A DNA stretch of 17,957 bases from Candidatus Parcubacteria bacterium (lineage in GTDB: Bacteria; Patescibacteriota; Patescibacteriia; PEXW01). The translations under genes were made by a program, and so were the position numbers. Position 1 is the stretch's first letter. Every line of letters starts with the position of its first letter. Shown piece after piece: positions 6,338-13,671 of this stretch. Location: NCBI GenBank assembly GCA_003597955.1, contig QZJU01000013.1, positions 1-17,957 of the forward strand, read 5' to 3'. The notes beneath the pieces were generated by a model, which saw only the letters and a program-made list of their open reading frames with translations, was not told where the DNA came from and made no database searches.

Positions 6338-6366
6338 ATTATACTAATTTTTTTTATTTCTGGCTA
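6338..6366 (-). promoter_or_regulatory. Promoter of the galU operon
   Basis: A perfect TATAAT (6343-6338) lies 17 nt from TAGCCA (6366-6361), a 4-of-6 match to the -35 consensus. The -35 overlaps the msrB stop codon region. The leader to ATG is about 27 nt and has no Shine-Dalgarno sequence. Confidence 0.6.
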
Positions 6367-6762
6367 GTTTTTTGGAATGAAATCCAGGGCTAAAGAATTT
6401 ATGCAATATCTCTTGCCGGTCGGCTGTTGGCCGCCTGCCTTACCCGCTTGGCGAGGCAGGTCATCAAAAACATGTCCCAAATGCGCTCCGCACCTGGCGC
6501 ATTGCACCTCGGTTCTTTCCATGCCTAAAGATAAATCCTTTTCGAATTTTACGGCTTTTGGCTCGGCCATATCCCAAAAGCTCGGCCAGCCCGTACCCGA
6601 ATCAAACTTGGTTTCGGAGGCAAAAAGTATTTGGCCGCAATTCACACAGGCGTAAACGCCCGCCGCTTTATTGTGCAAATATTTACCGCTGCCTGGCGGC
6701 TCCGTGCCTTTTAAAAAACAAACATTATATTGTTCAGGCGTTAGATTTTTATTTACTTGCAT
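6364..6762 (-). CDS. msrB: Peptide methionine-(R)-S-oxide reductase MsrB
   Basis: MsrB reduces the R-epimer of methionine sulfoxide in proteins. The 132-residue protein has the full family pattern: [10 protein letters not shown] (19-28), zinc Cys pairs C39/C42 and C88/C91, SGTGWPSFW (55-63), [10 protein letters not shown] (92-101) and the catalytic Cys120 in RYCINSLAL. About ten residues ([12 protein letters not shown]) are inserted between HVFDD and PTGKRYC compared with the usual DGP-PTGLRYC spacing. They are encoded by a palindromic DNA segment. The gene sits 20 nt after the CREST-type hydrolase gene, probably in one transcript. Partner MsrA is encoded about 2 kb away on the same strand. 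Confidence 0.93.
6434..6460. repeat. Palindromic in-frame insert inside msrB
   Basis: CCTGCCT (6434-6440) pairs with AGGCAGG (6454-6460). The loop contains a second stem CGC-TTG-GCG (6445-6453). It encodes LPRQAGKAG, precisely the segment that typical MsrB proteins lack. It has the form of a coding palindromic element of the kind known from Rickettsia. Confidence 0.6.
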
Positions 6763-8668: not shown

Positions 8669-9205
8669 TTATTTTAGTAAATTCCTAAAGCGCTTTCGGA
8701 ATTTAATGAGTTTCGGGCTGATGACGATCTGACAATAGGGCAGCTTGGGATTGTTGGCGAAATAGTCAGCATGGTAGCCTTCAGCTGGATAAAAGTTTTT
8801 CATCGGCAGGATTTGCATAATAATCGGGCGTTCAAAGACTTTTTCCGCCTCCAGCCTGGCCTTGAGATTTTCCGCAATATTTTTTTGCCCTTCAGATTGG
8901 TAAAAAACAACGGAGCGGTATTGCTCGCCCACATCATTGCCTTGCCGGTTCAGAGTGGTGGGGTCATGCGTGGCGAAAAGTATTTCCAGGAGTTTTTCTA
9001 AAGTAATAACTTCCGGGTCGAACTCCACCTGGACGACTTCGGCGTGGCCAGTCGTGCCAGAACAGACCTGTTCGTAGGTGGGATTTTCAACGCTACCGCC
9101 GGCATAGCCCGAAGTTATTTTGATTACGCCTTTTAATTCTTTTAAAATTGCTTCCGTGTACCAGAAGCAGCCTCCACCCAGGGTGATATATTCAGGCTTT
9201 GACAT
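8669..9205 (-). CDS. msrA: Peptide methionine-(S)-S-oxide reductase MsrA
   Basis: MsrA reduces the S-epimer of methionine sulfoxide in proteins and free methionine. The 178-residue protein carries the catalytic GGGCFW (Cys13), GYAGG (33-37), YEQVCSGTTGHAEVVQVEFDP (44-64), DPTTLNRQGNDVGEQYRS (81-98) and LPYCQIVISPK (156-166). Cys158 may be a resolving Cys; the distal C-terminal Cys pair of the E. coli enzyme is absent. The gene is last in a run with two ferritin-like half proteins (15-nt gap), suggesting a shared response to oxidants. Only a weak GGA precedes the ATG. Confidence 0.95.
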   Translation of the reverse strand: MSKPEYITLGGGCFWYTEAILKELKGVIKITSGYAGGSVENPTYEQVCSGTTGHAEVVQVEFDPEVITLEKLLEILFATHDPTTLNRQGNDVGEQYRSVVFYQSEGQKNIAENLKARLEAEKVFERPIIMQILPMKNFYPAEGYHADYFANNPKLPYCQIVISPKLIKFRKRFRNLLK

Positions 9206-9220
9206 CGGGTTCCAAATTTT

Positions 9221-9442
9221 TTATAAATTATTTTCAACCAAAAAAATGATTTTTTGCAAAATTGCGGCATGCTTGCGTTCGTCAGCCTGGATGAGATCAA
9301 AGGCGGTTTTGACTTTTTCGTCCACGATTTCCGGGCTCTTGGCAATGGTTTGGTAAAAGCCGCAGGTGCTTTCTTCCAAACTTTTCATTTCTTTCATTTC
9401 CCGCAAAATTTGATCTTTGGTTTTAGGGTCCGGGTTTTTCAT
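9221..9442 (-). CDS. Small two-helix ferritin/rubrerythrin-like half-domain protein, 73 aa
   Basis: Two predicted helices (about 8-35 and 38-70) match one half of a ferritin-like four-helix bundle. Helix one has SLEESTCGFYQTIA with Glu23/24 and Tyr30. Helix two has IQADERKHAAIL with an intact ExxH motif (Glu55, His58). In rubrerythrin-like proteins two such halves form a diiron site. Here only one half is encoded, so a dimer or a pairing with the upstream protein would be needed. The gene overlaps its upstream neighbour by 20 nt in another frame and is followed by msrA. Encapsulin-targeted ferritins also use two helices with ExxH, but no encapsulin gene or targeting tail is seen. Confidence 0.72.
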   Translation of the reverse strand: MKNPDPKTKDQILREMKEMKSLEESTCGFYQTIAKSPEIVDEKVKTAFDLIQADERKHAAILQKIIFLVENNL

Positions 9443-9677
9443 GCAATCGTTTAATTAATCCTTTGATAATTTTTTTGTGTCTTTCCGTGTCATCGATTAG
9501 AATGCGCAAAAGCTTCAGAATTTCCTGAAATGGCTCATTGCTTAAATTTTTCGGCCACATGCTTCGGATCAAATAAACACCGTAAACCGCAAAGCTCATG
9601 TGGTCTTCAATGTCTAAAGCCCGCAGTAGGTAATTATCTAATATTTCGAATTTTTTTTGCGAGCCCTCCCGATTCAT
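9423..9677 (-). CDS. Small ferritin-like half-domain protein with altered metal motif, 84 aa
   Basis: Two helices (about 10-38 and 48-78) resemble the other half of a ferritin-like bundle: ALDIEDHMSFAVYGVYLI (20-37, Glu24, Tyr32) and LIDDTERHKKII (60-71, His67). The position that should be the first Glu of ExxH, three residues before the His, is Thr64, with Asp63 and Glu65 on either side. It may be a structural partner that lacks a full site. The gene ends 20 nt inside the 73-aa gene, so translation is probably coupled. ATG follows an A-rich run without a Shine-Dalgarno sequence, 9 nt after the 106-aa membrane protein gene. Confidence 0.65.
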   Translation of the reverse strand: MNREGSQKKFEILDNYLLRALDIEDHMSFAVYGVYLIRSMWPKNLSNEPFQEILKLLRILIDDTERHKKIIKGLIKRLHEKPGP

Positions 9678-10059: not shown

Positions 10060-10908
10060 TTAAAACAACTCTTGAAAAAAATCATTTACACCACTTAAAG
10101 CCCCGTCATTTGTTATTATCAGATCAAAAACCCTTTGGTAATTTCCAAGATTTTTTTCGGCCTGTTCGTTCAAAAAGCCGATGGTAAGCAAGCTAGCATA
10201 ATCAAAACCCGTGACCATTTCCAGGTCGTGAGGGCTGTCGCCCAGCAAAATAACATTTTTGCGGCTTCTGATTTTTTCGTAAATTGGAAAACTCTTTAGG
10301 ATGGTTTCATCCTTATTTAAGGCGTGAATTATCGGCGTCTTTACGCTTTGCAACCGCCCCTTTGCGTCCCAGACCAACTGGTTGGAAATCACCTCGACAT
10401 TCGGTAAATTTAATTTTTCTTTTTCCAAAAATTTTACAATCGCGCCGCCGCCCAAGCCGCTGGAAGACATAATGATCAAGGGGATATTTTTTTCATTCAA
10501 CAAACCAAAAAAATCACCAGCGCCCTTGCGGAGCTGGAGCTCGGGCGAGCTGACGACTTTTTCAATATCAGCCTGGGTCAAACCCGAGGCAATTAACAGC
10601 TGAAAATGCCTGGTCCACCATTCCTGCATGGCCGCCTTTTTTTCGGCCAAAGGCAGGTTCGGATCAACTTCGATCTGATGATAATGTCGGAATAGCCCCT
10701 CGGCTTTTTGGGGGTAGTCCGGGGTTAAATGATTTTCATTCCGTAAAACCGAAATCATGGAGGCGACTTTTTTCCCACGGACAAAAGCCTTGATGAGCGT
10801 CCGATCAAAATCGCTTAGAACATGCACAGAGTCAGGGCCGGCTTTTTGCAAAAGTCGTTTAAGGTTTTCAAATTTTCTTGGATTGGAAATTAATAAATCG
10901 GAGCTCAT
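10060..10908 (-). CDS. UMPH-1 (cytosolic 5'-nucleotidase III-type) HAD phosphatase
   Basis: This family dephosphorylates pyrimidine nucleoside monophosphates. All HAD motifs are visible in the 282-residue protein: motif I VLSDFDRTLI with Asp33 and Asp35, motif II IIMSSSGLGGG (145-155), motif IV ILLGDSPHDLEM (220-231, Asp224, Asp228). Family-specific blocks are HYHQIEVDPNL (75-85), MQEWWTRH (94-101), NVEVISNQLVWD (170-181) and IHALNKDE (194-201). These match the eukaryotic NT5C3 group better than ordinary bacterial HAD nucleotidases. It follows the 134-aa membrane gene by 8 nt, probably as one transcript. Substrate preference cannot be read from the sequence. Confidence 0.85.
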   Translation of the reverse strand: MSSDLLISNPRKFENLKRLLQKAGPDSVHVLSDFDRTLIKAFVRGKKVASMISVLRNENHLTPDYPQKAEGLFRHYHQIEVDPNLPLAEKKAAMQEWWTRHFQLLIASGLTQADIEKVVSSPELQLRKGAGDFFGLLNEKNIPLIIMSSSGLGGGAIVKFLEKEKLNLPNVEVISNQLVWDAKGRLQSVKTPIIHALNKDETILKSFPIYEKIRSRKNVILLGDSPHDLEMVTGFDYASLLTIGFLNEQAEKNLGNYQRVFDLIITNDGALSGVNDFFQELF

Positions 10909-12015: not shown

Positions 12016-12062
12016 AAAACCACCAGATTGCCAGAAGCAATTGGGTGGTTTTTTATTTTTTT
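12016..12062 (+). terminator. Rho-independent terminator of the Nudix-like gene
   Basis: The outer stem AAAACCACC (12016-12024) with GGTGGTTTT (12044-12052) encloses an inner stem ATTGC/GCAAT (12027-12031, 12037-12041). A T-rich tail runs through 12063. It starts 7 nt past the stop codon. Confidence 0.88.
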
Positions 12063-12089
12063 TAAAAACCCAAACACTAGATTTTGGTA

Positions 12090-12105
12090 TATACTTAATA
12101 ATATG
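12090..12105 (+). promoter_or_regulatory. -10 box 7 nt before the protease ATG (leaderless-type)
   Basis: TATACT (12090-12095), then seven bases, then ATG at 12103. Transcription starting at the usual distance would begin at the start codon. There is no Shine-Dalgarno sequence and no clear -35. Confidence 0.5.
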
Positions 12106-13671
12106 CAAAGTTTTTTTCGAAAAACAAATTATTTTTTGCTTATTGCATTAATAATTGTTTTGGTTTCGCTGTCGCCTTTGCCGGCTTTCCCAAGCGCGCA
12201 TGCCGGATACGTGCCATCTGCGCCAGACAGCAATTATATGGATGCTTATCCGAGCTACAAAATTGCCGCAATACTTGTGACTTTTAGCGATAAACCGGCC
12301 AAACCCAATATTTCAGGCACGAAAAATCCCTGGACAAAGTCCTATGTAGACGGGGTTTTGTTCTCAAATAATGACTCCATGGCCGCCTTTTTCGCTGAAA
12401 CCTCCAATGGGGCGATTTCCGTCACCGGCGAAGTATTTGATAATAACGGTCTTTGGTACACAATCAATAGGCCGGCGACAATAAGGGGGACATGTAATTG
12501 GCGGTCATATTTTGACGAAACTTTGGCCGCAGTTGATGTGGATATTGATTACACCCAATACAACACTATTGTGGTGCTTTCCCCGCAAAAAACCTGCGGG
12601 GCCGAAGGTTTGGCCGGCAGCGTGGATGTGCCCGAGGCGGGATATAAGATGTATGGCGCTATTGATATTAACGGGAACATGGGCAGTAACCCACATCATG
12701 AGCTTGGGCATTTGTTGCAGCTTGGCCACGCCAATTCCTGGCAGTGCGACGCGCCGGGCGTAATGTACGGTACTAATTGCCGGAATATCGAATACGCAGA
12801 CCGGTACAATATCATGGGCGCAACCGGATCGCGGACATTGTTATTAACTGGACAGCAGTTGGAAAATTACGGCTGGATTCCGGCCTCGGATGTAACCACC
12901 GCCACTGTAGACGGGGATTATACGATTCAGGCATTCGAACTGCATGGCAACTTACCAAGAGTGCTGAAAATTCCTTTGGGCCGTGATGCGAACGGGAATA
13001 TCAACAGTTGGTATTATTTGGAATACCGACAGCTGATTGGTTTTGATAAAGTTTCCAACATAAACAGGTTCCTTAAGCCAACTGCCCAGGAATTAGGCGT
13101 GCCAAATGGAGTTTTGGTCCATGCAGGCAATTCCCAAGGCGACAATTTTTCGTCCACGTTGTTGGATATGACCCCAGGCTCTTTGCCTGGCGGTAAAGAC
13201 ATTTTCGACCCGGCCCTGCCATTGGGTTATAGCTATAGCGATTCAGTCGCGGGCGTCAGTTTTGGGGTTTTAGCCCGGAATGCCACGGCCATGGCCATCC
13301 GCGTAAAATTCAGCGCTGAAAGTTTGTGCCAACCCAAAGCGCCAACGGTTTCAATCAAGACCATAAAAGGCTCTGGCAAACCCGGCCAGGAGCTGCGTTA
13401 TGATTTGACGGTAAAAAACAACTCCACGCTTTGCGGCAAACAAAGTCTGGAATTGCGGACTTTAAAGGCGCCGGCTGGTTGGAAGGTGACGATTGATAAA
13501 CAGAAAAAGAAAACCGTCAGCGTAGTTTCACGGCAAACCCAAAAATTTGTGGTCAGAATCGTCCCGCCCAAAAAATCCAAATATCAAAAATATTCCCTCA
13601 GCCTTGAAGCCAGATTAGCCAAAAAACCAAGCTACAAAAAAACCACGCTTTTGCAGCCTCGGTTGAAATAA
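12103..13671 (+). CDS. Secreted metzincin-type metalloprotease (M11/gametolysin-like) with C-terminal NEW3-like domain
   Basis: From ATG 12103 the protein has 522 residues. A signal peptide (basic start, hydrophobic core about 11-28) ends near SAHA-G. The catalytic zinc site is HELGHLLQLGH (His199, Glu200, His203, His209). A Met-turn follows in YNIMGA (Met238), as in metzincins; Gln replaces the usual Gly at position 8 of the signature. After the catalytic region comes a beta-rich part with LEYRQ. The last 100 residues (PTVSIKTI... YDLTVKNNS... LKAPAGWKV) resemble the NPCBM-associated NEW3 fold. The frame is open 25 codons further upstream, but that part covers the previous terminator and promoter. 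It converges on the flavodoxin gene with a 3-nt gap. It is probably an exported or surface protease; the substrate is unknown. Confidence 0.82.
   Translation: MQSFFRKTNYFLLIALIIVLVSLSPLPAFPSAHAGYVPSAPDSNYMDAYPSYKIAAILVTFSDKPAKPNISGTKNPWTKSYVDGVLFSNNDSMAAFFAETSNGAISVTGEVFDNNGLWYTINRPATIRGTCNWRSYFDETLAAVDVDIDYTQYNTIVVLSPQKTCGAEGLAGSVDVPEAGYKMYGAIDINGNMGSNPHHELGHLLQLGHANSWQCDAPGVMYGTNCRNIEYADRYNIMGATGSRTLLLTGQQLENYGWIPASDVTTATVDGDYTIQAFELHGNLPRVLKIPLGRDANGNINSWYYLEYRQLIGFDKVSNINRFLKPTAQELGVPNGVLVHAGNSQGDNFSSTLLDMTPGSLPGGKDIFDPALPLGYSYSDSVAGVSFGVLARNATAMAIRVKFSAESLCQPKAPTVSIKTIKGSGKPGQELRYDLTVKNNSTLCGKQSLELRTLKAPAGWKVTIDKQKKKTVSVVSRQTQKFVVRIVPPKKSKYQKYSLSLEARLAKKPSYKKTTLLQPRLK

Follow-up and report, generated by a model that had tools for sequence, protein, structure and literature searches.

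Encapsulated ferritins (EncFtn) assemble into an annular decamer with a symmetric di-iron centre, and have ferroxidase activity. The designed due ferri proteins (DF1, DF2, DFsc), in which a helix-loop-helix unit carries one Glu and one ExxH, are symmetric or consist of a single chain, and in the rubrerythrin/ferritin-like superfamily (PF02915, PF13668) the whole bundle is contained in one chain. The di-iron site of EncFtn lies across a dimer of identical two-helix chains and is made up of Glu32, Glu62 and His65, with Tyr39 nearby (PMC5012862). Since the two chains are identical, this centre is 'by necessity symmetrical' (PMC5012862). Functionally distinct subunits occur in the heteromeric bacterioferritin of Magnetospirillum gryphiswaldense (PMC6529640), which resembles the putative complex discussed here in joining two kinds of ferritin subunit, but is a 24-mer of full-length four-helix subunits, so that its asymmetry does not lie within one half-and-half site.

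The A-B gene pair described here is a new variant among half-ferritins. Protein B is, like EncFtn, a two-helix chain with a Glu...Tyr...ExxH arrangement and a four-helix site expected across a dimer, but its partner is a different protein that lacks the ExxH glutamate. From the due ferri designs the pair differs in consisting of two natural genes and in having Ser/Thr where one bridging Glu would stand. The open-access literature searched (coverage incomplete) yielded no account of such a pair, and it is apparently undescribed there.

The gene pair in the window

The window, i.e. the whole stretch of 17,957 nucleotides analysed, belongs to a genome of 21 contigs, 0.99 Mb in total and 98.5% complete, which is CPR-like in size. 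The reading frames of genes A and B, their overlap and the distance to msrA (Table 1) are exactly as in the initial annotation of this DNA, as are the residues that it named, Glu55 and His58 of B and Thr64 of A; His67 of A can be added to these. The helix-1 glutamate to which it drew attention is conserved, but Glu24 is the residue of A, the corresponding one of B being Glu23. The overlap of the frames is likely to result in translational coupling.

Table 1. Positions of the A and B genes, their putative ligand codons and msrA in the window
Feature	Positions	Strand	Observation
Gene A, 84-aa two-helix protein, altered half-site	9423-9677	-	Homologues in 22 pairs; no Pfam or NCBIfam family
A Glu24, helix-1 glutamate, invariant	9606-9608	-	22/22
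A Thr64, at the position expected for the ExxH glutamate	9486-9488	-	Ser/Thr 21/22, Asn 1
A His67, invariant	9477-9479	-	22/22
Gene B, 73-aa half-ferritin, complete E...ExxH half-site	9221-9442	-	PDB profile matches and hairpin model
B Glu23, helix-1 glutamate, invariant	9374-9376	-	22/22
B Glu55 of ExxH, invariant	9278-9280	-	22/22
B His58 of ExxH, invariant	9269-9271	-	22/22
A/B reading-frame overlap, 20 nt	9423-9442	-	Other pairs also overlap or nearly abut
msrA	8669-9205	-	PMSR E=4.3e-64; 15 nt downstream of B; neighbour only

Protein B

Protein B is a two-helix half of a ferritin-like bundle. The Rubrerythrin model of Pfam (PF02915) matches 45 residues of window B with E=3.6e-4 and 21.4 bits, which is below its gathering cut-off of 22.8, and B is not a four-helix domain in a single chain; the model has no other match in the window genome. 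A profile of 12 B sequences, compared with the PDB, matched DFsc at 1.8e-13, DF-type hairpins at about 3e-9 and EncFtn of Pyrococcus (5n5e) at 2.9e-5, besides further chains of ferritin-like type. AlphaFold2, run on B with an alignment of three sequences, predicts a two-helix hairpin (residues 9–34 and 42–70, pLDDT 92), for which the top PDB match found by Foldseek is again EncFtn 5n5e (TMq 0.84, E 0.11, probability 1.00). With Glu and ExxH on a helical hairpin, B falls within the broad ferritin-like superfamily, whose motif and helix pattern it shares. Tyr30 follows Glu23 by seven residues, the same spacing as between Glu32 and Tyr39 of EncFtn.

The EncFtn family models (TIGR04535, EncB_fam NF058679, Pfam PF22277) also delimit this likeness, as window B scores 13.8 bits against a cut-off of 90 (EncB_fam) and its best-scoring relative 25 against 125 (TIGR04535). 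The C-terminus of window B (...IIFLVENNL) is by inspection unlike the targeting tails in PMC11202242. Moreover, encapsulin (PF04454) was found in none of 12 genomes, eleven with pairs and one with a remnant, while control matches were obtained in three named genomes; a role of the pair as encapsulin cargo was rejected on this ground.

Protein A and the altered half-site

No Pfam or NCBIfam family matched protein A, nothing credible was found for it among PDB sequences, and its homology to ferritins is not detectable at this level. Alignment of the A and B profiles with hhalign gave a weak probability of 21%, and paired Glu24 of A with Glu23 of B and His67 of A with His58 of B. This weak profile similarity, together with the common E...H spacing, suggests that A may be kin to B. 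The initial annotation had taken both genes to encode half-bundles of a ferritin-like protein; this is borne out for B by the profile matches to DFsc and EncFtn and by the EncFtn-like hairpin, but A matches no family and cannot be placed among ferritins by its sequence.

Over the 22 pairs identified (see below), most of the positions that hardly vary are those of the putative ligands and the Ser/Thr. Glu24 and His67 of A are present in every pair, and position 64 is Ser in 18, Thr in three and Asn in one, but never Glu. In B, Glu23, Glu55 and His58 are each found in 22/22, as is an acidic residue (Asp/Glu) at position 54. The EncFtn arrangement of a two-helix chain with a helix-1 Glu and an ExxH is thus that of B and not of A, which has Ser/Thr at the position of the Glu. 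Since Ser/Thr (Asn once) replaces the ExxH glutamate of A in all 22 pairs, the alteration of this half-site is a conserved feature of the pair rather than a sign of decay, and the combination of one complete and one altered half-site that had been noted in the window holds for the whole set.

A is also the variable member of the pair. It has an N-terminal stretch resembling a membrane helix in four pairs (G139, G286, G177 and G379), and in two genomes (G516 and G502) it follows a PAS protein as a C-terminal fusion.

Recurrence of the pair

Profile searches identified 22 A-B gene pairs in 21 genomes, one of which (G002) carries two. Most are from the phylum of the window, with its small, CPR-like genomes, and two are from related genomes of a different phylum, to which a Cyclobacteriaceae bin belongs and of which 80 genomes were sampled; the overlap in these two is 23 nt. 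A precedes B in every pair, and the genes nearly always overlap or lie no more than about 26 nt apart (115 nt in one pair). The recurrence of the pair in at least 21 genomes, with the same metal-binding residue missing from the same partner, makes it look like a real module and not like a decayed gene.

The first adjacent pairs were obtained by searching with B among relatives and in the class, and the phylum search yielded three more. A profile of A only was built next and run on 380 genomes of the class, where it detected eight new A genes (E 6e-20 to 1.7e-7); as a prospective test of the pairing, a B reading frame with ExxH was found directly downstream of all eight. Among the 379 genomes sampled from the phylum, credible matches of A are confined to four genomes that also have a pair-type B, a co-occurrence that is partly circular as these four belong to the training set of the profile. 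Distances of A and B are correlated with r=0.82, and with r=0.41 after thinning of similar pairs to 16 (both p=2e-4), in a comparison that ignores kinship in the species tree. These results support linkage and joint inheritance of A and B.

Searching genome contigs with window B gave no match, and with the B proteins of G516 and G502 only those two genomes and a polyketide synthase (L055), a chance match, were retrieved. Viral contigs gave no match, and no plasmid contained A. Weak A matches (E>=6e-4 among class genomes, 0.005 among those of the phylum) and the early single matches at L008 and L009 were likewise attributed to chance, those inspected being situated inside larger proteins. A match in the other phylum (G799) was rejected, as it has neither the Ser/Thr nor a B partner.

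Genomic neighbourhoods

The initial annotation had noted the adjoining msrA and linked the pair to methionine sulfoxide repair. The survey of related genomes confirmed conservation of the pair, but not of this position: msrA adjoins the pair in the window only and is absent beside the others. In a genome of the same genus (G001) a remnant of the pair (L003:1450-1850) adjoins a GalU gene, with A ending after helix 1 and B lacking a start, in different frames, and there is no msrA between the remnant and its neighbouring genes. A methionine-repair system was therefore rejected as a conserved link.

Neighbourhoods vary, and at most of the 22 loci the pair has no adjoining signalling or metal genes. 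Two-component genes are present near six loci. The operon of G502 (L054) has the order PAS-A, B, HAMP protein, dCache-HAMP-PAS histidine kinase and response regulator; in G125 a PAS protein, A and B occur together with a response regulator and a histidine kinase split over several reading frames; a response regulator follows directly after B in G360, and response regulators are located within 5 kb of the pair in G085 and G373. Among genes related to metals or redox, Nramp adjoins a pair on its upstream side in G002 and DJ-1/PfpI on its downstream side in G198; a ferric-reductase-like gene near the G139 pair has homologues near those of G177 and G286.

As a separate observation on L054 (2833-5160), a 'RELKMIELKK(K)I' segment lies within, or close to the end of, the PAS-A protein and the HAMP protein. 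Both proteins are without a kinase domain and stand right before the full histidine kinase and response regulator.

Proposed model and alternatives

We propose that A and B probably form an obligate natural heterodimeric half-ferritin, with a shared, asymmetric metal site. Each protein would be a two-helix hairpin, and side by side they would make up one four-helix bundle with the metal site between them. B would donate Glu23, Glu55 and His58, and A Glu24 and His67. As Ser/Thr in A would replace the second bridging glutamate, the site is predicted to be asymmetric, offering three Glu, two His and one hydroxyl compared with four Glu and two His, and its more open face would favour binding of O2, peroxide or labile iron over storage. 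A tethered A-B chain, in which one four-letter word was read as a codon purely as a modelling device, was predicted as four helices (pLDDT 78, pTM 0.71), with a topology biased by the tether; its structural matches are generic four-helix bundles.

A may serve as the part for location or output, through the membrane anchor or the PAS domain that it carries in some genomes, and B as the small subunit that always remains free. This combination of variable attachment of A with a free B favours a metal/O2-responsive (redox) module, which would be sensor-like where two-component genes adjoin. The reading as a whole, that of a widespread, undescribed, obligate heterodimeric two-helix ferritin with an asymmetric site fixed by selection and with metal/O2-responsive coupling via A to PAS domains or membranes, is put forward tentatively, as a conjunction that falls somewhat short of probable. 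Taken by itself, a sensor role is a possibility to which we give slightly less credence. If the model is true, a natural pair of unlike chains in which Ser/Thr has become fixed would illustrate the way in which a minimal di-iron site becomes asymmetric, a step commonly placed between half-ferritins and ferritins of one chain. It would also provide bioinorganic chemists with a natural counterpart of the designed due ferri proteins, and very small genomes with a candidate part for sensing iron or O2.

A serious rival to the responsive module, and one that is quite possible without being our preference, is that A-B is a plain small heteromeric ferroxidase or scavenger of peroxide or O2, the Ser/Thr tuning catalysis; it challenges the model as regards function and leaves the heterodimer in place. 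The ferritin-like motif fits such an enzyme, as do msrA in the window and the DJ-1/PfpI, ferric-reductase-like and Nramp neighbours elsewhere. Ferritins that mix active and inactive subunits offer a parallel, as does the heteromeric bacterioferritin of M. gryphiswaldense (PMC6529640). However, no storage shell or encapsulin was found in the 12 genomes, and for part of the family signalling is favoured by the PAS-A fusions and by the two-component genes nearby.

It is rather unlikely that B acts alone, as a homodimer resembling EncFtn or the due ferri proteins with a symmetric di-iron site, A being an adaptor or anchor outside that site. B does possess all the ligands for a symmetric site, in agreement with homodimeric designs and EncFtn, and the variable extras, whether membrane anchor or PAS fusion, are borne by A; but an adaptor would have no need of Glu24 and His67, which A has kept in 22/22 pairs while little else in it is invariant. 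That the two genes form a selfish cassette, of toxin-antitoxin-like or another kind, is very improbable: they are small and overlapping, their distribution is patchy, their neighbours vary and a damaged copy exists in the same genus, but the invariant putative metal ligands, the PAS and transmembrane fusions of A and the relation of the B profile to di-iron proteins argue against it. The idea of a decayed, split four-helix rubrerythrin that has lost its function with the missing Glu, to which the half-bundle size of each protein and the absent ligand of A might point, is largely refuted by the same split and substitution in 22 pairs from two phyla with invariant ligand residues.

Additional observations

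A different, unpaired half-ferritin of about 91–105 residues, with the core ELDAVNLYEQMAA...EEKTHVGEF, is widespread in the phylum of the window (L018, L021, L022, L024, L026, L033, L034, L036, L038-L043, L045, L047 and L049), and is sometimes found beside superoxide-dismutase-like genes (L033, L043). In the window itself, an msrB gene (6364-6762, minus strand) lies about 2 kb from msrA, with membrane-protein genes between them. Positions 10060-10908 (minus strand) encode a clear UMPH-1 pyrimidine 5'-nucleotidase (E=9e-63), a member of a family known mainly from eukaryotes, and positions 12028-13671 (plus strand) a secreted-looking protein with a zinc-protease-like motif, HHELGHLLQLGH.
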